NCBI GenBank assembly: GCA_902388455.1
Contig: CABMPD010000004.1
Location: 97,291-161,290, forward strand
Reading direction: 5' to 3'
DNA: 64,000 nt
Source: an uncultured Alistipes sp.
Lineage (GTDB): Bacteria > Bacteroidota > Bacteroidia > Bacteroidales > UBA932
The position numbers and the translations under genes are program-made. Below, piece by piece: positions 25,981-63,929 of the stretch. The notes under the pieces were generated by a model, which was given only the letters and a program-made list of their open reading frames with translations, ran no database searches and was not told where the DNA came from. How positions within the stretch are numbered: position 1 is the first letter of the stretch; each line of letters begins with the position of its first letter.

Positions 25981-26080
25981 ATATACAAAGGTGTAAATTT
26001 CAGCAGCGCAAATATGAGCAATAATTCTGAAAAGAATCTGAAATGGCTGTTAAATAAATGTTACAAAATCAAAAATAAAA

Positions 26081-26425
26081 AAGGCGGGACTGTAAGCCGG
26101 GTTCTGTACTCCGGAGCGGACCCCGGAGCCTCTATCATTTATCTGAGCAGCCTACCCCCCGGCAAAGAGCGAGCAACCCTTGACTGCCGGTATATTTGGC
26201 CTTGCAGGCCGCAGGCGGATACTCCGATGATGTCGCCATCGAACGGACGCAGGCTCTTACCCTGCATTTTCACCCTTACCTCTCCCGAGGGAGGGGCGGT
26301 TGTTTTCTGTTACCCGTGACGTAAGCTTTCGCCTACCTGTGCTTTCCACAGTGCGGTGCTCTGTCCTGCCCGGACTTTCCTCTCCCGGACCTTACGGCCC
26401 GACAGCGATAGAGCGCCCCGCCTTA
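26081..26425 (-). ncRNA. rnpB: RNase P RNA (class A)
   Basis: The minus strand contains the universal core GAGGAAAGTCCGGGC (26368-26382), the ACAGAA segment, GAGTATCCGCC-type internal helices and the 3' core AGAACCCGGCTTACAG (26090-26105). The ends pair as P1 (AAGGCGGG with CCCGCCTT), so I set the limits there. A T-rich tract after the 3' end completes a terminator. It is the catalytic RNA that trims tRNA 5' leaders. Short reading frames across it are not genes. Confidence 0.95.
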
Positions 26426-40010: not shown

Positions 40011-40409
40011 ATGTATGAACAGTTAGTAACATTGCCAAAAGTATCTGATCGTAGAGGGAATTTATCCTTTGCAGAAAATTTTAATCAAATTCCTTTTGAG
40101 ATCCATCGATTATATTGGATTTATGATGTTCCAGGAGGTACTGAACGAGGAGGACATGCTTATAAAGAAAACATAGAGTTTGTTATAGCTCTTTCCGGCA
40201 GTTTTGATGTAATTATTGATGATGGTAATAGAATAGAAAAGGTCAGTTTGAATCGTTCATACTACGGATTATTGATCCCTAAAATGACATGGAGGAAAAT
40301 GACTAATTTCTCAACGAATTCTCTAGCTCTTGTATTATCTTCTACAGAGTATAATCCTCATGACTATATTCGGGACTATCAAGATTTTCTAAAAGTAGTA
40401 AAACCATGA
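40011..40409 (+). CDS. FdtA/QdtA-like cupin (dTDP-sugar 3,4-ketoisomerase family), first copy
   Basis: The 132-residue WxcM-like/FdtA cupin would isomerise dTDP-4-keto-6-deoxyglucose to the 3-keto sugar. The core IYDVPGGTERGGHAYKENIEF aligns with the second copy, but the usual HAHK is HAYK here. The second His lies in the active site of characterised FdtA, so this copy may have altered or no activity, or a different stereochemical outcome. It overlaps the second copy by ATGA. Confidence 0.85.
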   Translation: MYEQLVTLPKVSDRRGNLSFAENFNQIPFEIHRLYWIYDVPGGTERGGHAYKENIEFVIALSGSFDVIIDDGNRIEKVSLNRSYYGLLIPKMTWRKMTNFSTNSLALVLSSTEYNPHDYIRDYQDFLKVVKP

Positions 40410-40828
40410 GAAAAACAACTGTATTTGACTGCACAATAGTTGAGATGGATAAACATCATAGTGACGATAGAGGTAACATTACTGTAGTAGAGAACATGAA
40501 AACTGTGCCATTTAATGTGAAAAGGGCATATTATCTTTATGATGTTCCTGGAGGCGGATCTCGCGGTTCGCACGCCCACAAGCAATTACAACAACTTATT
40601 ATTGCAGCAAGTGGAAGTTTTGACGTAACACTTGATGATGGAAATGTGAAGAGAACTTTTACATTAAACAGACCTTATCAAGGATTGCTGATAGTCCCTG
40701 GTATTTGGAGAGATTTAAATAATTTTTCTGCAGGGTCAGTATGCCTGGTACTCGCTTCGGAAAAATATGATGAAGCAGATTATATCAGGAATTATGATGA
40801 ATTTATAAAATACAAAAATCATGAGTAA
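40406..40828 (+). CDS. FdtA/QdtA-like dTDP-4-keto-6-deoxyglucose 3,4-ketoisomerase, second copy
   Basis: This 140-residue cupin has the complete active-site motif (YDVPGGGSRGSHAHKQLQQL) and FDVTLDDGNVK. It is the better candidate for the active ketoisomerase in the route to dTDP-Fuc3N or dTDP-Qui3N. It overlaps the preceding copy by four bases and the acyltransferase by eight. Whether the product has the galacto or gluco configuration cannot be told from sequence. Confidence 0.9.
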   Translation: MRKTTVFDCTIVEMDKHHSDDRGNITVVENMKTVPFNVKRAYYLYDVPGGGSRGSHAHKQLQQLIIAASGSFDVTLDDGNVKRTFTLNRPYQGLLIVPGIWRDLNNFSAGSVCLVLASEKYDEADYIRNYDEFIKYKNHE

Positions 40829-41501
40829 TATAATTCACCCCACCGCTCTCATAGGGCATAATGTCGAATTAGGAGATAACAATGTCATCGGACCATATAC
40901 AATAATCGAAGGTAAAGTATGCATTGGTGACAATAACATCATAGGTCCGCATGTCATAATAGGATGTCCTCCAACAGATACTAAACATATTGAGATTCAG
41001 TTCGATAACCCAAAAGTACTTATAGGAAACAATAATGAAATTAGAGAATTTTCATTGATTGAGCAACCTTGTTACGAAGAGTTTACTATTGTTGGAAATA
41101 ATGTATTTATAATGCAAGGGGTACATCTTTCGCATGATGTTCATATAAATGATAGAGCTGTCATAACAAATTCATCAGTATTGGCTGGAATTGTAAAAAT
41201 ACTTGAAGGGGCAAATATTGCCATGTCCTGTAGCATCAATCAGTACACAATTATAGGTCAATACTCAATAGTCGCAACAAATTCTGCTTGTATGAAAAAT
41301 GTACGGCCATTTTCGAGATATATTCCGAATAAACCAGTAAGTGTCAATACATATGCTATTAATAAATTCGGATTTGAAAAATATGAAGAAGAAATCAACG
41401 CATACGTCTTGAACAATGAAATGGTAAAATCTCCTGTTTTGGTAGGGATTATTAATGAGTTCGAACAATGGGTCGCAAAGTATGGACATGCAACATATTA
41501 A
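40821..41501 (+). CDS. Left-handed beta-helix N-acyltransferase
   Basis: The 226-residue protein has many hexapeptide repeats of the LpxA type ([20 protein letters not shown], then [12 protein letters not shown]) and a helical C-terminal tail. Between the ketoisomerases and the aminotransferase it would N-acylate the 3-amino group, giving for example dTDP-Fuc3NAc. Its LpxA-like N-terminus differs from the short FdtC acetyltransferases, so a longer acyl donor such as acyl-ACP is possible. Confidence 0.85.
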
Positions 41502-41511
41502 AAATAACGCT

Positions 41512-42612
41512 ATGGTGAAGTTTTTAGATCTGCAGCAAATAACTAGGAAATATTCGGAAGAAATACATGAAGCTGTCAATCGGGTTATTGATTCAGGTTG
41601 GTATCTTCAAGGAAAAGAAAATGAATTATTCGAACAACATTATGCAGATTATATAGGAAGCAAGCATGCAATCGGAGTGGCAAACGGACTAGATGCTTTA
41701 ATTTGGATTCTACGGGGATATATAGAATTAGGCGTCATGCAACCCGGTGACGAAGTAATAGTCCCGGCTAATACATATATCGCAACTATACTAGCCATAA
41801 CAGAGAATGGCCTCAAACCTGTATTGGTGGAACCAAACATTGAAACATATCAGATTGATGAATCTCTTATAGAATCGGCAATAACTCCTAAGACAAAAGC
41901 TATAATGATCGTTCATCTTTATGGATGCTGCGCATATACTGAACGTATTGGTAACATCTGTAAAAGATATGGTTTAAAATTGATAGAAGACAATGCACAA
42001 GCACATGGGTGTATATATAATGGGAAAAAAACAGGTTCTTTAGGAGATGCGGCCGGTCACAGTTTTTATCCAGGAAAGAATCTCGGAGCATTAGGTGATG
42101 CAGGTGCGGTCACGACAGATGATGATGAACTGGCCTTCGTAATCAGGGCATTGGCAAATTATGGTTCATCTAAAAAATATGTTTTCAAATATACTGGCAG
42201 AAATAGCCGTTTGGATGAAATCCAAGCTGCCGTGCTAGATGTGAAATTAAAACATTTGGACGAGGACATAGAACTGAGAAAACAAGTAGCAAAATGCTAC
42301 ATAGATAATATCAATCATCCCGATATTATACTTCCCAAATTTGATAATTGGGATAGACACGTATTTCATTTGTTTCCTATAAGATGTCATAGGAGAGATG
42401 AATTACAACAATACCTTTCCGATAATGGTATACAGACTATAATTCATTATCCTATAGCTCCTCATAAACAAGAATGCTATAAGGATTGGAATTCCATGAG
42501 TTTTCCTATTACTGAGAAAATACATAGGGAAGAGTTGAGTTTGCCTATAAGTCCATGCTTACTAAAAAATGAGATTCTGTATATTTCTGAAATTATATGT
42601 TCTTGGAAATAA
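41512..42612 (+). CDS. DegT/DnrJ/EryC1/StrS aminotransferase (FdtB/QdtB-like)
   Basis: The 366-residue PLP enzyme likely aminates the 3-keto sugar made by the FdtA-like protein. The start [14 protein letters not shown] at 41512 fits FdtB-type enzymes; the earlier codon at 41455 is inside the acyltransferase. The PLP lysine is in [17 protein letters not shown], and EDNAQAHG carries the cofactor Asp. It overlaps the flippase gene by 16 bases. Confidence 0.93.
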
Positions 42613-46820: not shown

Positions 46821-47861
46821 ATGTCAATTTTCAAAGATAAAGTACTTCTTATTACCGGAGGTACTGGATCATTCGGGAATGCGGTCTTGAATCGCTTTTT
46901 AACATCAGATATAAAGGAAATAAGAATATTTTCTCGTGATGAAAAGAAACAGGATGATATGCGCCATGAGTATCAGGCTAGGTATCCGGAGTATGCAGAC
47001 AAAATACAGTTCTATATTGGAGATGTCCGCAACATAGACTCTATACGCCCTGCAATGTATGGAGTGGATTATATCTTTCATGCAGCTGCATTGAAGCAGG
47101 TTCCTTCCTGCGAATTCTTTCCAATGGAAGCGGTGCGTACAAATGTAGTAGGAACAGAAAATGTACTTACTTCAGCAATAGATGCTGGGGTGAAATCTGT
47201 AATCTGTCTTTCAACAGATAAAGCGGCTTACCCGGTAAATGCAATGGGGACATCTAAAGCGATGATGGAGAAAGTAATTGTTGCCAAGTCCAGGACTGTT
47301 GATCCATCTAAGACGAAGATATGCTGTACACGTTATGGTAATGTGATGTGTTCTAGGGGTTCGGTTATTCCATTATGGATAGAACAGATTCGTCAGGGGA
47401 AGCCTATTACAATTACAGACCCGAAGATGACAAGATTCATCATGAGTCTTGAGGAGGCTGTAGATTTGGTATTGTTTGCATTTGAACATGGAACTTCTGG
47501 AGATATACTGGTTCAAAAAGCACCCGCTTGTACAATAGAAACACAGGCAAAAGCGGTCATCGAATTGTTTGATCCTGAAAAGAAAACAGAAATAAAGATT
47601 ATCGGTATTCGTCATGGAGAAAAGATGTATGAAACACTTCTTACAAATGAAGAATGTGCAAATGCAATGGATATGGGTAATTTCTATAGGGTTCCTTGTG
47701 ACAAACGTGGTTTGAATTATGATAAGTATTTTAAAGATGGGGATGTCAAAAGGAATACATTGACTGAATTCAATTCGAATAATACGGAGTTGTTGACGGT
47801 TGAACAGACTAAGAAAAAGATAGCATCTCTCAGTTATATACAGGAAGAACTTGCAAAATAA
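46821..47861 (+). CDS. UDP-GlcNAc 4,6-dehydratase/5-epimerase (FnlA/CapE/WbjB)
   Basis: The 346-residue soluble SDR starts FKDKVLLITGGTGSFGNAVL and has the catalytic LSTDKAAYPVNAMGTSKAMM typical of FnlA/CapE. It turns UDP-GlcNAc to UDP-2-acetamido-2,6-dideoxy-beta-L-arabino-4-hexulose, the first step to UDP-L-FucNAc. CapB/CapG-type partners follow in the usual order. It is distinct from the membrane dehydratase at 34121. Confidence 0.94.
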   Translation: MSIFKDKVLLITGGTGSFGNAVLNRFLTSDIKEIRIFSRDEKKQDDMRHEYQARYPEYADKIQFYIGDVRNIDSIRPAMYGVDYIFHAAALKQVPSCEFFPMEAVRTNVVGTENVLTSAIDAGVKSVICLSTDKAAYPVNAMGTSKAMMEKVIVAKSRTVDPSKTKICCTRYGNVMCSRGSVIPLWIEQIRQGKPITITDPKMTRFIMSLEEAVDLVLFAFEHGTSGDILVQKAPACTIETQAKAVIELFDPEKKTEIKIIGIRHGEKMYETLLTNEECANAMDMGNFYRVPCDKRGLNYDKYFKDGDVKRNTLTEFNSNNTELLTVEQTKKKIASLSYIQEELAK

Positions 47862-47870
47862 ATTTGCGCT

Positions 47871-49073
47871 ATGAAAATACTTGTTACAGGAGCAAAAGGA
47901 TTTGTTGGAAAGAATCTTTGTGCCCAACTCAACAATATAAAGGATGGTAACGCGAAATGCTACGGAGACCTTATTGTCAGTGCGGTTTACGAATATGATG
48001 TTGATTCAACTTTTGAACAATTAGATGAGTGGTGTAGGAATTGTGATTTTGTATTCAATTTTGCAGGTGTAAACCGCCCGCAGAATCAGGAAGATTTCAT
48101 GAAGGGAAATTTCGGATTTGCAAGTATACTGCTTGATTGTCTGAAGAAACATGGCAATACATGTCCTGTAATGATAAGTAGTTCGATTCAGGCTACACTC
48201 GCCGGACGCTTTGGAACAAGTGAATATGGCAAAAGTAAGAAAGCTGGAGAAGAACTTATGTTCGAATATTCAAAAGAGACGGGAGCAAAAGTTTTTGTCT
48301 ATCGTTTTCCGAATCTCTTCGGTAAATGGTGTAGACCAAACTATAACTCTGCAATAGCGACATTCTGCAACAATATTGCAAATGATCTTCCTATACAGGT
48401 CAATGACAGAAGTGTTGAATTGGAACTTTTGTATATTGATGATTTGGTTGATGAAATGATTGAGGCTTTGAAGGGCAATTCTCATACATGTGAGTTTGAT
48501 GGAGTGGATACAGTTCCATCTGAAAACGGGAGATATTGTTATTGTCCTATTACGCATAAGACAACACTTGGTGAGATAGTAGATATGATTTATAGTTTTG
48601 CAGATCAGCCGAAGACGCTCAATATACCCGAAATGCCATCAAACAGCCTTGCAAAGAAACTTTACAGTACGTATTTGAGTTACCTTCCTCAAAGAAAAGT
48701 TTCTTTTCCACTTAAGATGAATGTTGATGACAGGGGCTCCTTTACAGAATTGGTACATACTTTGAATACTGGACAGGTAAGTATCAACATATCAAAGCCG
48801 GGAATAACTAAAGGACAGCATTGGCATAATACGAAGTGGGAGTTTTTTATAGTTGTTGCAGGTCATGGTCTTATACAACAACGCAGGATAGATTCTGATG
48901 AAGTGATAGAGTTTGAGGTATCGGGAGGCAATATACAGTGTGTCCATATGTTGCCAGGATATACCCATAATATAATAAATCTTTCGGAGACGGAGAATCT
49001 TGTCACAGTAATGTATTGTAATGAGATTTTCAATCCGGAAAAACCTGATACATTTTTCTTACCAGTAAAATAA
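47871..49073 (+). CDS. UDP-2-acetamido-2,6-dideoxyhexulose reductase (FnlB/CapF/WbjC)
   Basis: The 400-residue bifunctional protein has an N-terminal SDR (KILVTGAKGFVGKNL) and a C-terminal cupin (FTELVHTLNTGQVSINISKP, then KGQHWHNTKWEFF). This two-domain layout is specific to CapF, where the cupin epimerises C3 and the SDR reduces C4 to UDP-L-TalNAc. It starts nine bases after FnlA and abuts FnlC. Confidence 0.94.
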   Translation: MKILVTGAKGFVGKNLCAQLNNIKDGNAKCYGDLIVSAVYEYDVDSTFEQLDEWCRNCDFVFNFAGVNRPQNQEDFMKGNFGFASILLDCLKKHGNTCPVMISSSIQATLAGRFGTSEYGKSKKAGEELMFEYSKETGAKVFVYRFPNLFGKWCRPNYNSAIATFCNNIANDLPIQVNDRSVELELLYIDDLVDEMIEALKGNSHTCEFDGVDTVPSENGRYCYCPITHKTTLGEIVDMIYSFADQPKTLNIPEMPSNSLAKKLYSTYLSYLPQRKVSFPLKMNVDDRGSFTELVHTLNTGQVSINISKPGITKGQHWHNTKWEFFIVVAGHGLIQQRRIDSDEVIEFEVSGGNIQCVHMLPGYTHNIINLSETENLVTVMYCNEIFNPEKPDTFFLPVK

Positions 49074-50234
49074 ATGAATATGTTTAAGAATAATGGAAAG
49101 CTGAAATTACTGATAATAGTAGGAACCAGACCTGAGATTATCCGTCTGGCAGCGGTAATAAATAAATGTAGAAAATATTTTGATGTAGTTCTTGCACATA
49201 CAGGCCAGAACTATGACTATAATCTTAACGGTATATTTTTCCGCGATCTCAAACTTGCGGATCCCGAAGTGTATTTGGATGCAGTAGGAGATGATCTTGG
49301 TGCAACTATGGGCAATATTATCGACAAGAGTTACAAACTGATGGTTAAGATAAAACCTGACGCAGTACTTGTTTTGGGAGATACAAACTCTTGTCTTTCA
49401 GTGATAGGCGCAAAAAGACTTCATATCCCAATTTTCCACATGGAAGCTGGAAACAGATGTTTTGATGAATGTCTCCCTGAAGAGACAAACCGTAGAATTG
49501 TAGATATAATATCTGATGTAAATATATGCTATTCAGAGCATGCACGAAGGTATCTTAATGCAAGTTCAGTTGCTCCACAGAGAACATACGTATCAGGTTC
49601 TCCTATGGCGGAGGTGCTTCATGAAAATCTTGCCGATATAGAAGCATCCGATATACATAAACGTCTTGGTTTGGAAAAAGGTAAATATATTCTTCTAAGT
49701 GCCCATAGAGAGGAAAATATTGATACGGAAAAGAACTTTATATCATTGTTTACTGCCATAAATAAGATGGCTGAAAAATATGATATGCCTATATTGTATT
49801 CATGTCATCCTCGCTCACGTAACAGATTGAATGCTTCCAGTTTTGAGTTGGATTCACGTGTAGTACGGCATGAGCCTCTTGGATTCCACGATTACAATTG
49901 TCTACAGATGAATGCTTTTTGTGTAGTGTCAGATAGTGGAACGCTTCCTGAAGAAAGTTCTTTTTTCACAAGTATAGGACATTCTTTTCCAGCCGTATGT
50001 ATAAGAACTTCAACAGAACGCCCAGAAGCATTGGACAAAGGTTGCTTTGTACTTGCCGGAATTAATACACATGATCTTCTGCAAGCTGTAGATCTTGCTG
50101 TAGAAATGAACGTTAACGGGGACAATGGTATACCTGTACCGAATTATGTAGATGAAAATGTCAGTACGAAGGTCGTTAAACTGATACAGAGTTATACTGG
50201 TGTTGTAAATAAAATGGTTTGGAGGAAGGAATAA
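49074..50234 (+). CDS. UDP-N-acetyl sugar 2-epimerase (FnlC/CapG/WbjD)
   Basis: The 386-residue WecB-like epimerase has the pattern LLIIVGTRPEIIRLAAV, LVLGDTNSCLS, HMEAGNRCFDECLPEETNRR and VSDSGTLPEESSFF. Behind FnlA and FnlB it should convert UDP-L-TalNAc to UDP-L-FucNAc. The ATG at 49074 follows the preceding stop with no gap; an alternative ATG lies at 49080. Confidence 0.94.
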   Translation: MNMFKNNGKLKLLIIVGTRPEIIRLAAVINKCRKYFDVVLAHTGQNYDYNLNGIFFRDLKLADPEVYLDAVGDDLGATMGNIIDKSYKLMVKIKPDAVLVLGDTNSCLSVIGAKRLHIPIFHMEAGNRCFDECLPEETNRRIVDIISDVNICYSEHARRYLNASSVAPQRTYVSGSPMAEVLHENLADIEASDIHKRLGLEKGKYILLSAHREENIDTEKNFISLFTAINKMAEKYDMPILYSCHPRSRNRLNASSFELDSRVVRHEPLGFHDYNCLQMNAFCVVSDSGTLPEESSFFTSIGHSFPAVCIRTSTERPEALDKGCFVLAGINTHDLLQAVDLAVEMNVNGDNGIPVPNYVDENVSTKVVKLIQSYTGVVNKMVWRKE

Positions 50235-53933: not shown

Positions 53934-54530
53934 ATGTACAAAAGTTTTTTTAAAAGATTAATTGATTTTGCAATAGTTTTTATAGCGTTGCTGATATTAT
54001 GGCCTTTTTTATTGATAATAACCATTTGTTTACACTTTGCTAACAAAGGAGCAGGGGTGTTTTTCACACAAGAAAGACCTGGAAAAAATGGAAAGATTTT
54101 CAAGGTTATAAAATTTAAATCAATGACTGATGATAAAGATCAAGATGGTAAATTGTTGCCAAATGAACAACGAGTTACAAAGATAGGATTATTGATTAGA
54201 AAAACTTCAGTCGATGAATTACCGCAATTATTTAATGTCTTAAAGGGTGATATGTCATTAGTTGGTCCTCGTCCGTTATTGTCAAGGTATTTGGATTTAT
54301 ATACTCCTGAGCAAGCACGTAGACATGAAGTCAGACCAGGGATAACAGGATGGGCACAAGTGAATGGTCGTAATGCTATAACATGGACTAAAAAATTTGA
54401 ATTAGACGTATGGTATGTAGATCATTGTTCTTTATTTTTAGATGTGAAGATTGTATTTAAGACAATTGTAAATGTTTTGCGTAGAAAAGATATTGCTATA
54501 TCTACAGGCGGTTTTAATGGAAATAATTAG
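53934..54530 (+). CDS. Initiating phosphoglycosyl transferase (PglC/WbpL-like sugar transferase)
   Basis: The 198-residue monotopic enzyme has one N-terminal membrane hairpin (FAIVFIALLILWPFLLIITI) and the catalytic Asp-Glu dyad in TSVDELPQLFNVLKGDMSLV, followed by GPRPLL and RPGITGWAQVNGRN. It starts the repeat unit by moving a sugar phosphate to undecaprenyl phosphate. The size matches the minimal PglC form, not the long WbaP type. PglC usually uses UDP-diacetylbacillosamine or a related 6-deoxy amino sugar. Confidence 0.94.
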   Translation: MYKSFFKRLIDFAIVFIALLILWPFLLIITICLHFANKGAGVFFTQERPGKNGKIFKVIKFKSMTDDKDQDGKLLPNEQRVTKIGLLIRKTSVDELPQLFNVLKGDMSLVGPRPLLSRYLDLYTPEQARRHEVRPGITGWAQVNGRNAITWTKKFELDVWYVDHCSLFLDVKIVFKTIVNVLRRKDIAISTGGFNGNN

Positions 54531-54543
54531 GTAATTAGTTTAT

Positions 54544-55782
54544 ATGGATTCGATAAAGAAAGCTATTGTTTTAGCAGGTGGAAATGATCAAATTGCACTT
54601 ATAAATAAGTTAAGAAATAAATTCAACGATATTTATATTTATTTAGTTGATTATGCGGAAAATCCTGTGGCTAAAACTTATGCAGACGAGCATCTTAGAA
54701 TCAGTACTATGGATCAAGATGCTGTGTTAAAAGTGGCCAAAGAGAAAAATGTTGATTTGGTTATAATAACTTGTGGAGATCAGCCTTTGCCAATAATGGC
54801 ATATGTATCAGAACAATTAAAATTACCGACCTATCTTTCTTTTGAGCAGGCAGTTAATCTTACTAATAAGATGAAAATGAAAGAATTGATGGTTAGTAAT
54901 AATATTCCAACTGCGAAATATAAAATCTGTACTACGACAGAAGATATAAATATAAGTAATTTAAAATTTCCATTAATTGTTAAACCTTCTGATTGTAATG
55001 GATCAAAAGGTGTTAGAAAGGTCCAAAATGAGCAGGAACTGCTTTTTTATTTGGACCAAGCTTTGAATTTTAGTCGTTCTCATACTGCAATAATAGAGGA
55101 ATTTAAGGATGGGATTGAGATAAGCGTTGATGCTTATATTTGTGAAGGGAATGTTTTTATTATATTGATGAGTCAATTAAATAAATATTATGTTGATGCT
55201 TCAACTCAAATTATATATCAAAGTGTAGGACCGGCACAAATTTCTGACAATGTAAAAAATACAATTCAGGACATTGCTTATAAAATAAGTAAGGCCTTTT
55301 CACTATATAACTCGCCACTTTTAATTCAGGTTATTGTAAATGGAGATGAAGTTAATGTAGTTGAATTTTCTGCACGTATAGGAGGAGGAGCTAAATATCA
55401 AACTATTGAAAAAGTAACAGGTTTTGATATTTTGGGCGCTAATGTAGATGCTTTCTTTGACAAAAAAACAGATGTGAAAACTAATGAAAAACAATTGTTT
55501 TATTCAAGATGTCATCTGTATACTAAAGGTGGTATTTTAGGTAAAATAACGGGGTTGGACGAGTTGGTTAAATCAGGAGAGGTCGATAGTGTAACTTATA
55601 CCAAAACTAAAGGAACAATGGTTACAACTCCTCATGGTAGTAGCGATAGGGTGGCGTCTTTCTTTGTTTTAGCTGAAGATTTTGATTCGTTAAATAGTAG
55701 AATAAATAAGTCTTTGGAGGAAATAAAGATATATGATGAGGATGGTAATGATATAACATTTAGAGAAATGTACCAAATATAA
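54544..55782 (+). CDS. ATP-grasp ligase (amino-acid/carboxylate ligase-like)
   Basis: The 412-residue protein has an N-terminal Rossmann-like domain (KKAIVLAGGNDQIALINKLR) and an ATP-grasp domain with FPLIVKPSDCNGSKGVRKV, AIIEEFKDGIEISVDAYI and the metal-binding VVEFSARIGGGAKY. The C-terminal part resembles PurK/BtrJ/carbamoyl-phosphate-synthase-like ligases. Such enzymes join a carboxylate to an amine through an acyl phosphate. Next to a cobalamin protein and within a sugar locus, it may attach an amino acid to an amino sugar. The product is unknown. Confidence 0.88.
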   Translation: MDSIKKAIVLAGGNDQIALINKLRNKFNDIYIYLVDYAENPVAKTYADEHLRISTMDQDAVLKVAKEKNVDLVIITCGDQPLPIMAYVSEQLKLPTYLSFEQAVNLTNKMKMKELMVSNNIPTAKYKICTTTEDINISNLKFPLIVKPSDCNGSKGVRKVQNEQELLFYLDQALNFSRSHTAIIEEFKDGIEISVDAYICEGNVFIILMSQLNKYYVDASTQIIYQSVGPAQISDNVKNTIQDIAYKISKAFSLYNSPLLIQVIVNGDEVNVVEFSARIGGGAKYQTIEKVTGFDILGANVDAFFDKKTDVKTNEKQLFYSRCHLYTKGGILGKITGLDELVKSGEVDSVTYTKTKGTMVTTPHGSSDRVASFFVLAEDFDSLNSRINKSLEEIKIYDEDGNDITFREMYQI

Positions 55783-55804
55783 TATTTAGAGAAAGACAAT
55801 TATA

Positions 55805-57640
55805 ATGGATAGACAGAATATTTTTTTAGCTTCAACGTTGGCAAATGATCCACATACTGAAGGTATCCATAATGCTGGCAGAATTGCAAGAATGGCAGGG
55901 ATTAGAACAATTCTATTGGAGCCATCGGATAATTTAGATATAATTTGTAATGCCATAAAAGAAAATAGGCCACGCTATATAGGATTAAGTTATAGGTTAA
56001 CACCCTCTGTTGCATGTGACCAGTTTGAGAAAGCGTTAAATTATTTTGTAAATACTGGTCTGATGACGAGAGACGATGATGTTAAAATTACATTGGCAGG
56101 TTTGCCCGAAACCATAAAAATTTTAGAAAGTAGGTTGGATAAATTGCCATTAAGGGTTTATTTGTGTTCAGCTTCTCCAAATGTGATGGATAGGGCTATA
56201 GAAACTATTGAATTTTTTGATATTATAGATAATAAAGAAAAAATAATTGAACAGGTTCGTGAAGAAATAGTTCCACCTGGAATAAAGATTTTTGATGAGC
56301 TGGCAAGTGAAGTGGTTGCGCATGATAACTATAAATCAGTATTGCCTTTGCCCGTTCCGTCCAATGAGGCTATTTATAGTTATACAAAAAGAATAGAAGA
56401 GTCGCCAATACCGCTTTTAAGGTCGCATTTTGGGATACCAGATAATAGTATTGAACCTACTGTTGAAGGGATTAAGCAAATTGCAGAGGCAAGAGTTATT
56501 GATGAGTTGTCATTAGGTTCGTCTGATTTGTCTCAAAGATATTTTGGATATCCTGAAATGTTTAAGGAAAGAAAAAATGATGGAGGAGTACCATATAAAA
56601 ATATAGAGGACCTTAAAAGGTTGTTCTATGCTTCTAGAACTGGTAATTTCCCATCAGTTAAGCCATATTGTCATGTTTCCAACATTTCAAAATTTGTGGA
56701 TGAATGTATATCCATTGGACTTTTGAGAGGAGCACATCAAGCCATTCCATTATATTGGTTCAATGAATTAGATGGAAGAGGTCCAGCTAATGTAAGGCAA
56801 TCAATACATGAACATTTTGAAGCTGTAAAGAAATTAGCAGATTATGGTATTCCAGTAGAAATGAATGATCCAAATCAATGGAGTTCCAGACAGGCTCATG
56901 ATACAATCATAGTTACAAGTTATGCTTTGATATCTGCTGTAATGACGATGTATGGAGTTACGGATATGGTTCTTCAAATGCAGTTTAATAAACCTAAAGA
57001 AACTGGTGATTATGCAGATTTGGCAAAGATGGCTGCTGGTTTTGAAATGGCAAAAATGATGAGTTCTTATTCTGGTAGAACAATCAATCTTATAACAGAA
57101 ACTAGGACAGGTATTGAACATTTGAGTCCAGATTTGGAATATGCGAAATGGCAACTTGCTCGTTCTACAATGCTTCAGATGTGTATGAATCCTCAAGTTA
57201 TTCATGTCGTTAGTTATTGTGAAGCCAATTATGCTGCCAAGCCTGAGGATATCATAGATAGTTCTAAATTGATAAGAAAGGCTATAGAGATCTTTAGACA
57301 AAATAAACCTGAAGTAGAAATGTATTTAAAAAATTCTATTATCAGTGAAAGAAAAAACTTTTTGATAAATGAGTCTTCTTATTTGTTGGATGAAATAGCT
57401 AAGCTTAATGTTAGATATCAACCAGGTATATATACTCTAAATCAATTGACGCCATATCTTGCAGATGCGGATACCATATCTACTTCTATAGAGAAAAAAA
57501 TCATGACTGCTCCAGGTATAATTAATCCAAAATATAAAGGAGATTTTATGACTAAACCTATGAAATATGGAATGATTAACGTTGTAGATGATTATGTGAA
57601 CCCTAGAATCATAACTGAGAAAGAAAGGTTATCAAAATAA
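55805..57640 (+). CDS. Cobalamin-binding, glutamate-mutase-like protein
   Basis: The 611-residue protein has an N-terminal B12-binding Rossmann domain with the base-off DxHxxG motif (NDPHTEGIHNAG: Asp15, His17, Gly20) and a GLSYRLTP segment at the SxL position. The rest (about 250-600) resembles the TIM barrel of methylaspartate/glutamate mutase subunit E in its segment order (NDPNQWSSRQAHDTIIVTSY, MAAGFEMAKMM). Normal glutamate mutase splits these parts over two proteins. A fused form in a polysaccharide locus is unusual. I infer an adenosylcobalamin carbon-skeleton rearrangement of an amino acid. No MutL-like chaperone or reactivase is nearby. Confidence 0.75.
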   Translation: MDRQNIFLASTLANDPHTEGIHNAGRIARMAGIRTILLEPSDNLDIICNAIKENRPRYIGLSYRLTPSVACDQFEKALNYFVNTGLMTRDDDVKITLAGLPETIKILESRLDKLPLRVYLCSASPNVMDRAIETIEFFDIIDNKEKIIEQVREEIVPPGIKIFDELASEVVAHDNYKSVLPLPVPSNEAIYSYTKRIEESPIPLLRSHFGIPDNSIEPTVEGIKQIAEARVIDELSLGSSDLSQRYFGYPEMFKERKNDGGVPYKNIEDLKRLFYASRTGNFPSVKPYCHVSNISKFVDECISIGLLRGAHQAIPLYWFNELDGRGPANVRQSIHEHFEAVKKLADYGIPVEMNDPNQWSSRQAHDTIIVTSYALISAVMTMYGVTDMVLQMQFNKPKETGDYADLAKMAAGFEMAKMMSSYSGRTINLITETRTGIEHLSPDLEYAKWQLARSTMLQMCMNPQVIHVVSYCEANYAAKPEDIIDSSKLIRKAIEIFRQNKPEVEMYLKNSIISERKNFLINESSYLLDEIAKLNVRYQPGIYTLNQLTPYLADADTISTSIEKKIMTAPGIINPKYKGDFMTKPMKYGMINVVDDYVNPRIITEKERLSK

Positions 57641-57648
57641 ATATAGAT

Positions 57649-58614
57649 ATGACAAATAGAATTATTAAAGAAATAAAAGCATGCAAAGATTGTCTGTCTT
57701 TGCTTCCAAAAAATAGAAAACATTCGAAATTTTATTATTTCATTGATATGCTATATTGTATAGCAAGATATGGGGCAATAGGAGAAGATTATATTTCACT
57801 TAAATTCTGTGATAGGCCTGCGTCAGAGCGTAAAAAATTCGTTACCCAAGGTAATAAGAGAAAATTTTATAGGGAATTCTATACAGAAGAAGCTAGAGAA
57901 ATACTAAGACTTAAATATGAGTTTAGTAAAAAATTCTCAGAATTTGTAAAGCGAGATTGGATTTTTACGGGTTCTTCAACTGAAGAGCAAATTAGAAAAT
58001 TTATAAATTCACACGACAAAGTCATTATTAAACCAATAAGTTCTACATGGGGTATGGGTATTGAAGTCATATCACCTGAGCAAGCTGATATTAAAAAACT
58101 TATGGCTGGCGAATATATGATTGAAGAAGTATTACAAAATCATGAATCATTAAAAAGGCTTAATCCTTCGTCTCTTCAAACATTACGTGTGGAAACATGT
58201 ATTGATAACAAAGGTGAATTCCATCTTCTCAATGTCTTATTAATGATTGGTACGAAAAAAGTGATTATGTCTAACTGCCATAGTGGAGGATGTATGGCAC
58301 ATATTGATATTGAAAAGGGAGAAGTGGATTCTCCAGGCTGGAATCCAACGGGATGGGAATGTACAATACACCCGTCAAGTAATATAGAGTTGATTGGTTA
58401 TAAAGTTCCATTTATGGATAAGTTGTACGATTATATCAAACGAGTTGCATATGTTATGCCTGAAGCGCGTTATGTTGGCTGGGATGTTACTATTACAGAA
58501 AATGGCGATTTTGAATTAATTGAAGGTAATTTTTGTCCAGGCCAATGTACACAAGTTTGTGATAATGTTCCGAAATATGAGATACTTTTGTCATATTTGG
58601 GCGAAACTAAATAG
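57649..58614 (+). CDS. Sugar-transfer-associated ATP-grasp protein
   Basis: The 321-residue protein has an ATP-grasp domain of the polysaccharide-associated type (ATPgrasp_ST): VIIKPISSTWGMGIEVI, EYMIEEVLQNHESLKRLNPS, TLRVETCIDN and the metal-binding WDVTITENGDFELIEGN. Relatives near polysaccharide genes are thought to form amide or peptide bonds on sugars. It follows the cobalamin protein by eight bases. Two ATP-grasp enzymes in a row suggest either two bonds or one activation and one transfer. Confidence 0.88.
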   Translation: MTNRIIKEIKACKDCLSLLPKNRKHSKFYYFIDMLYCIARYGAIGEDYISLKFCDRPASERKKFVTQGNKRKFYREFYTEEAREILRLKYEFSKKFSEFVKRDWIFTGSSTEEQIRKFINSHDKVIIKPISSTWGMGIEVISPEQADIKKLMAGEYMIEEVLQNHESLKRLNPSSLQTLRVETCIDNKGEFHLLNVLLMIGTKKVIMSNCHSGGCMAHIDIEKGEVDSPGWNPTGWECTIHPSSNIELIGYKVPFMDKLYDYIKRVAYVMPEARYVGWDVTITENGDFELIEGNFCPGQCTQVCDNVPKYEILLSYLGETK

Positions 58615-58656
58615 ATAAGATATTCAATTATTTTGTTATAGTATTTGCAAAGAAAT

Positions 58657-59484
58657 ATGAGTATGAAAGTATTAGCATTTATATTGAAATTTTTTAAGTA
58701 TTTGAGATGGTGTACACAAGGTGGATATACGCATATAGTATTGTCGCAAATACAATATCCGGAAATTTTAAAGGGTAAGAAGATTCTTATAACAGGTGGA
58801 AGTGAGGGTATTGGTTTTGCTATGGCTAATAAGTTTATTGAAGCAGGGGCGGAAGTAATGATTACAGGACGAAATATTGATAAATTAAAAAAAGCTAAGC
58901 AATCTATAGACTCGAAAAGATTATATACCATACAATGGGATATGGCAGATATTAATAATATTGATAAATATATTGATCAAGTGAAAACCGAGATGGGAGG
59001 AATAAATATTCTAATTAACAATGCAGCATTTTTAGCGCATTATAGACCAACTGAAGAGTATTTTGATAATCTGATGCATATCAATGTAAAAGCAGTATAT
59101 ATTCTTTCACAAAAAATAGCAGAAATAATGCACTTGGAGAATGGTGTGCAAGGAGGAAAAATTATTAATATATCATCCATTAATGCATATGAGTCAAATA
59201 TTAATCCGTATTTTATATCAAAAAGGGCTTTAAATGCTATTACTGAGGGTTTTGCAAAAAAATATGCACCTTTTAATATTATTGTGAATGGAATTGCTCC
59301 AGGATATTGTGATAGTAGTATTAATAAGATTAGTGCAGAAACAAATGCTTATCATGAAAAACCTATAAATAATCGTATTACTACTCCTTATGAAATTGCA
59401 GAGTTAGCAATGTTTTTATGTTGTGATGCATCAAATGGTATTATTGGTCAAACAATAGTTTGCGATGGTGGTTCGTTACTTTGA
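58657..59484 (+). CDS. Short-chain dehydrogenase/reductase
   Basis: The 275-residue classical SDR has a short hydrophobic N-terminal extension (about 1-40), the NAD(P) motif TGGSEGIGFAMA, NNAAFLAHY, IINISSINAYESNINPYFIS with Ser and the YFISK Tyr/Lys pair, and a terminal GQTIVCDGGSLL. I chose the ATG at 58657 over the TTG at 58645; an ATG at 58663 is also possible. It likely interconverts a ketone and an alcohol in the substituent pathway. It is followed at once by an aldo/keto reductase. Confidence 0.9.
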   Translation: MSMKVLAFILKFFKYLRWCTQGGYTHIVLSQIQYPEILKGKKILITGGSEGIGFAMANKFIEAGAEVMITGRNIDKLKKAKQSIDSKRLYTIQWDMADINNIDKYIDQVKTEMGGINILINNAAFLAHYRPTEEYFDNLMHINVKAVYILSQKIAEIMHLENGVQGGKIINISSINAYESNINPYFISKRALNAITEGFAKKYAPFNIIVNGIAPGYCDSSINKISAETNAYHEKPINNRITTPYEIAELAMFLCCDASNGIIGQTIVCDGGSLL

Positions 59485-59486
59485 TT

Positions 59487-60335
59487 ATGGAATATATTTA
59501 TACGAATCTGGGAGTATTCCCGAAACTAGGCTTTGGTACTTACTCTGTACCTAAAGATAAACTACAAGAACTTATTTTGGAAGCTTTAAGAATAGGTTAC
59601 ACTCTTTTTGATACTGCAAATAAATATAAAAATGAGGAATTAATAGGCAGAGTACTTCATGATACAGGATATAATAGAATGAATTATCTTCTTGAAACAA
59701 AGGTTCATGCAGCATTGTTGTTGGGAAATCTCCGCTATTTACGATTAAATAGAAAATCTCCTAGATCTGCGCTTCATAGAGCTTGTCGTAATTTGAGGAC
59801 TGATTATATAGATGTATTTATGATTCATGGCTTTTTTAAAGGTTATGAAAATTTTCTAAGAAGGTATATTGCTCTGAAAGAATTAGGTTTAATAAAATAC
59901 ATTGGTTTGTGTAATGTAAATTTGCATCAATTGGAATCATTGTATGCTATGCGTTTACTGCCTGACATAGTGCAAGTTGAAATACATCCTTATCATTCAA
60001 ATAAACCTTTGATAGAGTTTTGCCATTTACACAATATAGTGGTAGAAGCTCGTTCTCCTTTTGCACACGGTGATGCGATAGTAGATTGGATGAAAGAACC
60101 AATACTTCAAAATATTGCAAATGTTCATAAAGCAACTATTCCTCAAGTGATTCTAAGGTGGATAACTCAACAAGAAATAGTAGCATTACCAAGAACTTCA
60201 AATATTCATCATCTGAAAGAAAATATACAATCTTTTAAAATAACATTGTCAGAAGAAGAAATTTGTGCAATTGATTCTGTGAATAAGGATAAGTCATACG
60301 GTTATATATCATTTAGGGAATATGTTAAACAGTAG
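59487..60335 (+). CDS. Aldo/keto reductase
   Basis: The 282-residue TIM barrel has the AKR catalytic set: Asp and Tyr in FDTANKYKNEELIGR, Lys in LLETKVHA and His in DVFMIHGF. NADPH-site residues are in the C-terminal LPRTSNIHHLKENI. The ATG at 59487 lies two bases after the SDR stop; the earlier codon at 59460 lies inside the SDR. It would reduce an aldehyde or ketone. A 295-base AT-rich stretch without a gene follows. Confidence 0.9.
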   Translation: MEYIYTNLGVFPKLGFGTYSVPKDKLQELILEALRIGYTLFDTANKYKNEELIGRVLHDTGYNRMNYLLETKVHAALLLGNLRYLRLNRKSPRSALHRACRNLRTDYIDVFMIHGFFKGYENFLRRYIALKELGLIKYIGLCNVNLHQLESLYAMRLLPDIVQVEIHPYHSNKPLIEFCHLHNIVVEARSPFAHGDAIVDWMKEPILQNIANVHKATIPQVILRWITQQEIVALPRTSNIHHLKENIQSFKITLSEEEICAIDSVNKDKSYGYISFREYVKQ

Positions 60336-60630
60336 TATCTATTGAAATGTTGAAAATTATGTATTTGTAGCTAATATAATATCCGTGATTAGCAATATGT
60401 GAAGATTGTTTTAAGCTATACAATAGTTTTTTGTAAGGAAAATCTTTTATAAAAACTGATGATATTTATACGATTAACCTATTATGAATTAGATATGCAA
60501 TCTTCTCTAAAATAAAAGTTGTGCAGATGTATTTGGAATGAAGGATATTCATGATATTTGATGACATTTATTTTATAAATATATTTAAAAAAATTTCTAT
60601 TGGTAAATTCTGCAATACATATAACACTAT

Positions 60631-61881
60631 ATGATAACAATTGGAATTCATGGTCTTGCATCTCAAAGTGGCCGGGCTTTTTTTGCAGACTATGCAAGTA
60701 AGAATTATAAAGTAATTGGATATAACCGACTTTCAGATCATGGAGTCGCTGTTATTAATGAGATTAATAAACAAGGAGGTATTTATTTAGAACGTCCTTT
60801 GAATACTAATAATGAGATATCTCATTTTGTCCCTTTAAACAACTGTAAAGTAACAAATGATATATCTGTTTTAGTGTCAGAGTCAGATTTGATCATTATA
60901 GCGTTACCGTCAATATTCCAGATAGATGCAGTCAAAGAAATGGCTATGGCGGGATTAAAAGAAAAGAATACTGCAATTATACTCGCTCCTTCTCGTACTA
61001 TAGCTAGCCCTTATATATGGCAAATAATGGGAGATGAATATCCAGTAGCATGTTTTTCAACATGTCCGTATTCATGTAAAGCTCCTGCATTGGGGACTTC
61101 ATTAATCAAGAGAAGAAAAAGAACATGGGCAATTTCTCTAGAAGGACAATTTACAGAAAAACAAAAAGATATACTAAGAGAACTTTTCCCACAGGCGGCA
61201 ATTTCGAAAGTTCCTGCATTAACATCTTTAAATAATATAGGAGCTGTTTTTCATTGTGCTACTTATTTGCTTAATTATGAAAATATTAAAAGAAGTGAAC
61301 AGTCTGGTGAAATTTTCTCGTTTTATATGGATGGAATTGCATCAAGGCCAGAAGTCGGAGAAGTTCTTGAATCTATTGATCAAGTAAGGCTTCAGATAGC
61401 TGATAAACTCGGCTTAAGCACTTTTGGACTTAAGGAAAATCCTCGTGAAGATATCTGGAGAAAACTGACAAATGGGTTGCGAGCATTGGAAGAGGAACAT
61501 GAAGGAGAAATTGATATTTTGAGAAAATTGAGACGATTATTTTCTGAATACTTGAGTACAAGTATTATTTCAGCGCAACATTGGCTGGATATTACATATG
61601 GTGTAAATAGAATAGAAGGAGAATCGTTGTCACATGCTATTGGAAGAACTCCTACATATCAAAAGAATTCTGTACCACAAGAACGTTATATGACAGAAGA
61701 TATTCCTACGGGTTTGGTTCCATTTGAGGCTCTTGCGAAAATGTTAGATATAAATTCGGCTCCAATAACTTCAATTATTGATGAATACGAATGTCGTTTT
61801 GATCCTAATGTTAGAGTAAAAGGAAGAAATTTAAATGATTTTAGTAAGGAACAAATATTGAAATATTTGAAAGGTGAATAA
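60631..61881 (+). CDS. Opine-dehydrogenase-like NAD(P) oxidoreductase
   Basis: The 416-residue protein has an N-terminal Rossmann domain (ITIGIHGLASQSGRAFFADY) with the IIIALPSIFQIDAV segment. Its all-helical C-terminal domain resembles octopine/nopaline dehydrogenases (TSLNNIGAVFHCATYLLNYE; later ISAQHWLDITYGVNRIEGES). Opine dehydrogenases couple a 2-keto acid to an amino acid by reductive N-alkylation. Opine-type amino acids such as N-carboxyethyl-lysine are known on bacterial polysaccharides, so a substituent role fits. A 289-base AT-rich stretch without a gene separates it from the next aminotransferase. Confidence 0.82.
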   Translation: MITIGIHGLASQSGRAFFADYASKNYKVIGYNRLSDHGVAVINEINKQGGIYLERPLNTNNEISHFVPLNNCKVTNDISVLVSESDLIIIALPSIFQIDAVKEMAMAGLKEKNTAIILAPSRTIASPYIWQIMGDEYPVACFSTCPYSCKAPALGTSLIKRRKRTWAISLEGQFTEKQKDILRELFPQAAISKVPALTSLNNIGAVFHCATYLLNYENIKRSEQSGEIFSFYMDGIASRPEVGEVLESIDQVRLQIADKLGLSTFGLKENPREDIWRKLTNGLRALEEEHEGEIDILRKLRRLFSEYLSTSIISAQHWLDITYGVNRIEGESLSHAIGRTPTYQKNSVPQERYMTEDIPTGLVPFEALAKMLDINSAPITSIIDEYECRFDPNVRVKGRNLNDFSKEQILKYLKGE

Positions 61882-62170: not shown

Positions 62171-63421
62171 ATGACGCAAAACCGCATTTACCTCTGCCTA
62201 GCCCACATGAGCGGTAACGAGCAGAAATTCATACAGGAGGCTTTCGATACAAACTGGGTAGTACCTCTTGGCCCGAATGTGAACGGATTCGAAGAAGACC
62301 TTAAACAATATGTAGGAGAAGGGAAGGAAGTCGTGGCTCTGGCATCCGGAACTTCTGCCGTCCATCTGGCCCTAATGGCATGTGGGGTTGGACCGGGAGA
62401 TGAAGTCCTGGTCCAGAGCTTTACTTTCTGCGCATCCTCACACCCGATCACATATCTGGGAGCCACTCCGGTATTCATAGATTCTGAAGATGACACATGG
62501 AATATGGATCCGGCTTTGCTGGAAAAGGCCATAATTGACAGAATTGAGAAAACCGGCAAAAAGCCTAAGGCAATAGTTCCGGTGTATCTGTATGGTATGC
62601 CGGCAAAGATAGACGAGATAATGGCGATAGCGGGAAAATACGGTATCCCGGTCATCGAGGATGCAGCTGAAGGGTTCGGCAGCCGCTTTGACAGACGTGT
62701 CTGCGGGACATTCGGACGTTATGGAGTCCTGTCGTTCAACGGCAACAAGATGATTACCACCTCCGGAGGAGGGGCGCTCATATGCCCTGATGCTGAAGCC
62801 AAGAAGGAAATCATGTTCTATGCCACCCAGGCCAGGGAATCATATCCATACTACCAGCATGAAAAGATAGGATATAACTACCGCATGTCGAATATCTGTG
62901 CAGGTATCGGACGCGGACAGATGACGGTCATGGACGATCATGTCGCCCACCACAAGCATACATACGAACTGTACCGGGAACTTCTGAAGGATGTAAGGGG
63001 AATAGGACTGCATGGCAATCCTTCCGGACGTTATGACAGCAACTTCTGGCTCAATACCATTACCATTGATCCGGAACTGAAAATCAAGGGACAGGAAAAG
63101 GCTTATGCCACAGCGATTCAGGGAGCTGTCGGAGGAGCTGCCGGTGTTACACATGAAGCATCGGCACTGCATACCGATTGCGAACCCAATGCCAATGTCG
63201 AAGCCATGAGAATAGGACTGGATGCATTGGGGATAGAAGCCAGACCGCTTTGGAAACCCATGCACAGGCAGCCTGTGTATAAAGACTGTCCGGCATATCT
63301 GAACGGGGTGAGCGAAAAACTCTTCAAGGTCGGCATGTGCCTGCCCTCAGGACCCTGCGTCACAGACGAAGACATCAGGTACATCGTTGAGTCAATAAAG
63401 AATATGATATCATTTGAGTGA
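62171..63421 (+). CDS. DegT/DnrJ/EryC1/StrS aminotransferase (PglE/WbpE-like)
   Basis: The 416-residue PLP enzyme has a start typical of the PglE group in Bacteroidota (IYLCLAHMSGNEQKFIQEAF, NWVVPLGPNVNGFE), IEDAAEGFGS for the cofactor Asp, and SFNGNKMITTSGGGA with the PLP Lys. It probably aminates UDP-4-keto-6-deoxy-GlcNAc made by the dehydratase at 34121. Its composition is backbone-like, unlike the gene before it. This marks the right end of the variable core. Confidence 0.93.
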   Translation: MTQNRIYLCLAHMSGNEQKFIQEAFDTNWVVPLGPNVNGFEEDLKQYVGEGKEVVALASGTSAVHLALMACGVGPGDEVLVQSFTFCASSHPITYLGATPVFIDSEDDTWNMDPALLEKAIIDRIEKTGKKPKAIVPVYLYGMPAKIDEIMAIAGKYGIPVIEDAAEGFGSRFDRRVCGTFGRYGVLSFNGNKMITTSGGGALICPDAEAKKEIMFYATQARESYPYYQHEKIGYNYRMSNICAGIGRGQMTVMDDHVAHHKHTYELYRELLKDVRGIGLHGNPSGRYDSNFWLNTITIDPELKIKGQEKAYATAIQGAVGGAAGVTHEASALHTDCEPNANVEAMRIGLDALGIEARPLWKPMHRQPVYKDCPAYLNGVSEKLFKVGMCLPSGPCVTDEDIRYIVESIKNMISFE

Positions 63422-63459: not shown

Positions 63460-63486
63460 TCTGGAGTAAGCCTTCAGACCTTTTAG
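63460..63486 (+). terminator. Terminator of the polysaccharide locus
   Basis: GTCTGGAG (63460-63467) pairs with CTTCAGAC (63473-63480) with one G-T pair around a 5-base loop, followed by CTTTT. It lies 39 bases after the aminotransferase stop. It may also be the end region of the neighbouring insertion sequence. Confidence 0.65.
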
Positions 63487-63929
63487 TTTTGCAAATATAT
63501 CAATTTATCTGTTACCTCATTGGCAGGCATGCCTGCCAATGAGGATTTTTTATCCGTCCGGAACAGGTCCTTGTCAAGATCGATTCTGGGCACCTTCCTC
63601 AGGTATGACTTCTTGTCCATGGCCGTCTTACCCATGAGCAGGATGACGGACTCCTCGTTCGGCATGGCGCCGCGCATTCTGGTGACCCTCCGGAAGTCCT
63701 TCTGCAGCCGCTCTATCCAGTTCGTGGTGTATATCATCGACTGGATGCGGTGGTCGTAGTTCAGATAAGTGAAGTACGCCTTGTAGGAGGCATCCTCGCC
63801 GCGCCTCTTTATGCCCCTGTAGTGCCTGCCCCATTTGGAGCAGAAGCCCTGCCATTCGACCCATGCCTGCTCCACGGTGTAGTTGCGTATTTCGGTCGAT
63901 AGCCACCCAGGGATTTCAGTCATAACCAC
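63483..63929 (-). pseudogene. Truncated IS256-family transposase
   Basis: The 148-codon frame encodes only the C-terminal third of a mutator/IS256 transposase, usually about 400 residues. IRSMIYTTNWIERLQKDFRR-type sequence (here IQSMIYTTNWIERLQKDFRR), then VTRMRGAMPNEESVILLMG, includes the late catalytic region. Homology begins near IRNYTVEQAWVEW; the residues before it come from the tandem repeat at 63889-63932. The 5' two thirds are missing, so the element is inactive. Confidence 0.85.

Follow-up and report, generated by a model that had tools for sequence, protein, structure and literature searches.

The stretch of DNA examined here, from an uncultured Alistipes sp., likely encodes a cobalamin-dependent mutase partnered with an opine dehydrogenase (ODH) that is predicted to be specific for acidic amino acids. 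The whole stretch analysed, hereafter the window, comprises 64,000 nt of contig CABMPD010000004.1, and both proteins belong to a cassette of six genes (positions 54544–61881) at the downstream end of a polysaccharide locus. We propose, with a probability of roughly 0.4, that the mutase and the ODH make an acidic, amino-acid-derived building block, which is then attached by a ligase to the repeat unit of the polysaccharide. The most likely product would be an acidic opine or a branched acidic amino acid, amide-linked to an amino sugar. The two central genes are:

55805..57640, plus strand: cobalamin mutase, 611 residues; B12 domain at approximately 1–140, glutamate-mutase-like barrel at approximately 186–607
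60631..61881, plus strand: ODH, 416 residues; Pfam Octopine_DH PF02317, 92.7 bits (cut-off 30); 1bg6 matched at E 1.6e-14; R122/G204 and NADPH-type R33

The 611-residue protein has a B12-binding match of only 18.1 bits, under the Pfam cut-off of 32.1, and neither an NCBIfam match nor a sequence match in the PDB. Among 7993 candidates scored, 599 homologues were recovered at E ≤ 0.001, indicating that the protein represents a real family; one from Butyricimonas paravirosa is 72% identical. Its cobalamin-binding motif reads D15-P-H17-T-E-G20, with H17 and G20 invariant across 51 aligned relatives, 35 of which match PF02310 at E ≤ 0.1. The family was divided into mutases of the window type (class 1), proteins of about 560 residues (class 2), in which Cys replaces the motif Asp in all 14 readable sequences, and proteins of about 630 residues (class 3). 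When the three classes were combined, the MutE profile was matched over 444 columns at 90.6%, while the comparisons per class gave 83.7% for class 2, 16.9% for class 3, and 0.5% for class 1; the KamD profile gave no useful match with any class. Fold comparison indicates that the window protein consists of a B12 domain and a glutamate-mutase-like barrel, and that class 2 likewise has a mutase fold. A preliminary description of the window had proposed a fused, B12-binding, glutamate-mutase-like protein, and the DxHxxG motif, the fold comparison with glutamate mutase, and the MutE profile match all bear this out.

Across the three classes, 57 columns are conserved in at least 93% of 46 sequences, including E473, which aligns to MutE E330. 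The family thus shares with glutamate mutase (MutS/MutE) the B12 domain, the barrel fold, this glutamate, and the absence of the lysine for pyridoxal phosphate (PLP). It differs from glutamate mutase in being a single chain with the B12 domain first, in its standing association with a nearby ODH, and in several residues. H208, Q244, and Y288 align to MutE R66, R100, and R149 (each in 46/46 sequences, although the mapping is approximate), and V469 sits at MutE K326 in the profile alignment. R206, R325, R362, and R434 are also invariant. The MutE arginines 66, 100, and 149, presumably all with substrate-related roles, are therefore not found in this family, and we read its members as probable catalysts of the same type of chemistry as glutamate mutase on a different substrate. 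OraE and KamDE belong to the same barrel superfamily. However, the residue eleven positions after the motif His is Lys in 7/7 OraE sequences and Ala (50/51) or Val (1/51) here. A PLP aminomutase of the OraE or KamDE type was rejected as the PLP lysine is missing in all 51 relatives, which makes PLP chemistry of the ornithine aminomutase type unlikely. A fold comparison with OraE, MutS, and MutE had been suggested previously, and the common barrel superfamily is borne out.

The conserved unit is the mutase together with the ODH, and this pair also occurs far outside polysaccharide loci. A genome scan yielded 25 class 1 loci, and wider searches led to 20 further regions (15 class 2 and 5 class 3). 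Counting the centre genomes and a few weak or partial matches, the wider search detected the mutase in 10 of 393 genomes in the order of locus L001, 16 of 301 Chloroflexota (the phylum of L013), 21 of 341 genomes in the class of L019, and 3 of 159 in the family of L021, these three having already been sampled. The mutase and ODH lie within the same examined stretch in 41 of the 45 loci, spanning all three mutase classes, and are directly adjacent in 34. The ODH is present in all 15 class 2 loci, once with an ATP-grasp gene in between, and in all five class 3 loci; in class 1, it adjoins the mutase in 15 of 25 loci and lies within about 7 kb in the same stretch in six more. Locus L004 was considered as an exception and rejected since its ODH is located approximately 12.8 kb downstream on the same contig. 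The stretches of L005, L008, and L022 are cut off by a contig end within or next to the mutase. Such an ODH is present on other contigs in the genomes of L005 (interrupted by a stop) and L008 (close to one end of a 3.9-kb contig), and a search of the L022 genome found none.

The preliminary description had suggested searching genomes for the same gene order, and it is the mutase–ODH pair that recurs (41/45), not the whole set of six genes. The short-chain dehydrogenase/reductase (SDR) of the cassette was the best match for no open reading frame in the 25 class 1 loci and was rejected as a core member. The aldo/keto reductase (AKR) is also present in L001, L002, L003, L004, L007, and L023. In Chloroflexota, a mutase–MutL fusion of 1264 residues (L187:3022-8027; also L062) is flanked by an ODH and an oligopeptide-type transporter and retains the conserved residues of the mutase family. 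Its MutL domain scores 243 bits (cut-off 27), and the NCBIfam GlmL match scores 227.5, under the cut-off of 475, in a stretch clipped by the end of the locus. As GlmL is named for glutamate mutase, the fused domain favors true mutase activity, at least in this relative.

The partner ODH is predicted to be acid-specific on the basis of residues whose effect has been measured in related enzymes. In the accessible part of their paper, Telek et al. (2024; PMC10787698) describe opine dehydrogenases (mODHs) that prefer L-Asp or L-Glu with pyruvate, and supply no genomic context for them. The preference between L-Phe and L-Asp was switched experimentally by positions 111 (Ala/Arg) and 198 (Asn/Gly) of ArODH, and Arg at position 35 was linked to NADPH (PMC10787698). 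R122 and G204 of the window ODH correspond to ArODH 111 and 198 via the 1bg6 alignment, and this Arg/Gly acid signature of the mODHs is present in 59/59 aligned ODHs (39 from class 1 and 20 from classes 2 and 3), as is the Arg at 35. The His-Asp dyad and active-site Trp are also in place, with H208 and W318 each in 59/59 ODHs and D357 in 57/59 (Glu in the other two).

As a control, a single Octopine_DH locus was taken from each of 30 genomes, out of 35 that matched among 245 of one class (Clostridia). The acid signature occurs in 12/12 ODHs that have a mutase no more than 1.5 kb away, compared with 3/18 that do not (Fisher p 1e-5); seven of the 12 are from genomes that also yielded the rule, the other five being new, while relatives are not independent and the L172 ODH is partial. 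The ODH beside the fused mutase in L187 has both the Arg and the Gly and lacks the Arg at 35. L188 contains a second ODH, without an adjacent mutase, whose residues at the signature positions are Gly and Asn. The three control ODHs that carry the acid signature with no mutase so close (L178, L179, and L180) are neighbored by an NMT1-like binding protein and an OCD_Mu_crystall gene of the ornithine cyclodeaminase family (assigned by Pfam in L178 and read by eye in L179 and L180). Such neighbors suggest that acid-signature ODHs may also serve catabolism, and loci of this type are perhaps used for the uptake and breakdown of acidic opines. In L114 (2186-3844), an amidohydrolase lies upstream of the ODH–mutase pair, beside genes that resemble transporters when read by eye, possibly representing a catabolic version of the pair.

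The other four genes of the window cassette and two flanking genes are:

53934..54530, plus strand: initiating sugar transferase, immediately 5' of the cassette; PF02397, 218.4 bits
54544..55782, plus strand: ATP-grasp ligase of the L-amino-acid-ligase type (ATPg1), 412 residues; Pfam ATP-grasp_4, 54.6 bits (cut-off 27), and LAL_C2, 34.3 bits (cut-off 29.4)
57649..58614, plus strand: sugar-transfer-associated ATP-grasp protein (ATPgST), 321 residues; Pfam ATPgrasp_ST PF14397, 131.9 bits (cut-off 31.4)
58645..59484, plus strand: SDR reductase, accessory, 279 residues, TTG start; Pfam adh_short_C2, 149.7 bits (cut-off 27)
59460..60335, plus strand: AKR, 291 residues, TTG start; Pfam Aldo_ket_red PF00248, 145.6 bits (cut-off 24)
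62171..63421, plus strand: DegT-family sugar aminotransferase, candidate origin of the acceptor amine; PF01041, 293.9 bits

The list of open reading frames and the Pfam matches confirm six consecutive plus-strand genes of the families previously named, and the Pfam content of the flanking genes agrees with the polysaccharide setting: nucleotide-sugar genes, a flippase-type protein, glycosyltransferases, and the initiating sugar transferase, with the DegT aminotransferase following the cassette. The AKR reading frame overlaps the SDR by 25 bp, and its true start is thus probably later. ATPg1 has both an ATP-grasp domain and an LAL C-terminal domain above the Pfam cut-offs, and its solved relatives include 4dim, 3vot (L-amino acid ligase BL00235; E 6.9e-15), and BacD. 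The closest solved chains to the DegT aminotransferase are 1o61 and 4ztc, which we take to be PglE. A ligase related to L-amino acid ligases, together with a sugar aminotransferase, would fit the earlier suggestion that an amino acid is attached to an amino sugar.

Elsewhere in the locus, positions 46821-50234 contain three sugar-nucleotide genes (Pfam Polysacc_synt_2, Polysacc_synt_C, and Epimerase_2), presumably FnlA, FnlB, and FnlC, in the order expected for UDP-L-FucNAc-type synthesis. A second amino-sugar branch is encoded at positions 40011-42612 by two tandem FdtA-type proteins, a hexapeptide transferase, and another aminotransferase of the DegT family. The end of the window carries part of a Mutator-family transposase (63483-63929, minus strand; 50.8 bits, cut-off 21). 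At gathering thresholds, Rfam identified only tRNA and a bacterial class A RNase P RNA (26077-26424, minus strand; 211 bits) in the whole window, and no RNA control element near the cassette.

Parts of this architecture are found in other genomes. ATPg1 is located directly 5' of the mutase or the ODH–mutase pair in 12 of 25 class 1 loci, including 10/10 with Bacteroidota-named records, and is preceded by the initiating sugar transferase in seven of these 12; ATPgST is immediately 3' of the mutase in 7/25. Locus L123, from the order of L001, has flanks similar to those of the window (epimerase 83%, glycosyltransferase 58%, initiating transferase 63%, ATPg1 40%, and aminotransferase 63%), but the mutase and ODH between these like capsule flanks are of class 3 and only 27% and 25% identical to those of the window. 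Such a joint difference would be expected if the two act as a single functional unit determining one feature of the polysaccharide. In the three classes together, a search with our own seeds detected an amide-forming ligase within three genes in 22 of 44 scored loci. Among the seed-negative loci, L119 and L120 exceed a Pfam ATP-grasp cut-off and L024 is just under (25.1 against 27), and L111, outside the scored set, has a gene of the D-Ala-D-Ala-ligase type. In L108, L109, and L110 (Chloroflexota), an asparagine-synthase-type gene follows the mutase and ODH (identified by Pfam in L108 and by the seed search in L109 and L110).

From the observed fold, pairing, specificity residues, and locus architecture, we infer a substrate, an order of steps, and a linkage. 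An adenosylcobalamin-dependent mutase, without PLP, would rearrange the skeleton of a glutamate- or aspartate-type acid, for example to a branched aspartate. The NADPH-dependent ODH would then couple the amine of this acid to pyruvate or another 2-keto acid, yielding an N-(1-carboxyalkyl) acidic opine and drawing the mutase equilibrium forward. ATPg1 may subsequently activate a carboxylate and form an amide with the amino group of the sugar made by the aminotransferase. The first two steps could possibly occur in either order.

This pathway is favored by the mutase fold and MutE profile match, the missing PLP lysine, the 41/45 pairing, the 59/59 signature and the Clostridia control, the joint class change in L123, the upstream ligase in 12/25 loci, the MutL fusion beside a signature ODH, and the published mODH assays. 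Several observations weigh against it. No member of the mutase family has an established activity, and class 1 alone reaches only 0.5% in the MutE profile comparison. Given the residues at the MutE arginine positions, free glutamate held as in MutE is an improbable substrate. The ODH is not adjacent to the mutase in six of the 25 class 1 loci, nor in the window; 22 of the 44 scored loci have no amide ligase detectable by the seed search; and several mutase–ODH loci are near transporters or have no polysaccharide context. One reading of the altered arginine positions is that the ODH reaction precedes that of the mutase, whose substrate would then be the opine itself, for example N-(1-carboxyethyl) glutamate or aspartate. 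The replacements are fixed in three classes, as expected for a larger common substrate, and the ODH residues fit plain Asp or Glu, but the Km for L-Asp of 15–25 mM in three of six mODHs (PMC10787698, accessible part) leaves room for another natural substrate, such as the mutase product. This order of reactions is rather unlikely. It is doubtful that a widespread family of adenosylcobalamin mutases rearranges acidic opines and is used by Bacteroidota as a swappable capsule cassette, with a surface antigen made partly by B12; we know of no B12-dependent rearrangement of an opine.

The loci away from polysaccharide genes could also mean that the pair forms a small-molecule pathway (opine catabolism, a free solute, or a metal-binding opine) that reached polysaccharide loci by chance gene traffic, leaving the sugar undecorated. 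Stand-alone ODH–mutase pairs in Bacillota, Chloroflexota, and Myxococcota, the fused mutase adjoining an oligopeptide-type transporter, and the signature ODHs beside OCD_Mu_crystall and NMT1-like genes are consistent with such a pathway. However, chance traffic is quite unlikely given that a different class of pair is enclosed by like capsule flanks in L123 and that ATPg1 is directly 5' in 10/10 loci with Bacteroidota-named records. Lastly, the 611-residue protein may retain the fold and be no isomerase, acting instead as a corrinoid-binding sensor or methyl-transfer protein. The Cys at the motif Asp in class 2 (14/14), the resemblance of the class 2 N-terminal domain to methyl-transfer corrinoid proteins, and the sub-threshold B12 score of the window protein point in this direction, whereas the entire barrel, the 57 conserved columns with E473 at MutE E330, and the MutL domain fused in one relative make it very improbable.

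The pairing itself has been noted before. A 2009 study by Zhang, Rodionov, Gelfand and Gladyshev (PMC2667541) predicted a B12-dependent family, present in 11 bacteria from the Clostridia, Lactobacillales, Chloroflexi, and Thermotogae, whose genes invariably adjoin pfam02317 and in several organisms also have a D-Ala-D-Ala ligase or an asparagine synthase close by, and called for experiments; the accessible text of that paper assigns no function and gives neither mutase fold, substrate, nor a polysaccharide link. The Halothermothrix orenii genome paper noted such an operon, with no role assigned in the accessible text (PMC2626281). By description, not sequence, the class 2 loci have neighbors like those of the former and fit the latter, and the association with pfam02317 reappears here (same stretch in 41/45 loci, adjacent in 34). 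The earlier claim that no pathway with this gene set had been described is thus correct for the chemistry but not for the pairing, noted twice in 2009 without an assigned function in the accessible texts (PMC2667541, PMC2626281). In the open-access literature searched, no description was found of the chemistry of the mutase–ODH pair or of such a pair among polysaccharide genes, and nothing on point for the MutE arginines or carboxyethyl-alanine O-antigens. The mutase fold, the prediction of acid specificity, and the capsule cassette were likewise not found in that literature, whereas the pairing of the B12 family with an ODH has been known since 2009. A report of raised octopine dehydrogenase in ethanol-adapted Thermoanaerobacter (PMC3751872, seen in part) was too indirect and was not used.

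In outline (mutase, ATP-grasp ligase, dehydrogenase), the cassette also resembles the pyrrolysine pathway PylB/PylC/PylD, but only by analogy, as PylB is a radical SAM enzyme, unlike the B12 mutase here, and ATPg1 scores 62.9 bits for PylC against a cut-off of 248.3.

Few B12 mutase reactions are known, and many gut Bacteroidales must import vitamin B12. The role of the pairing between the B12 protein and the ODH has been open in print since 2009, as far as the accessible texts go (PMC2667541, PMC2626281), and the residue signature makes it amenable to a cheap and specific assay with two purified proteins. Should the polysaccharide indeed carry the product, some gut Bacteroidales would be reliant on a vitamin for their surface chemistry, which would affect antigenicity and phage receptors.
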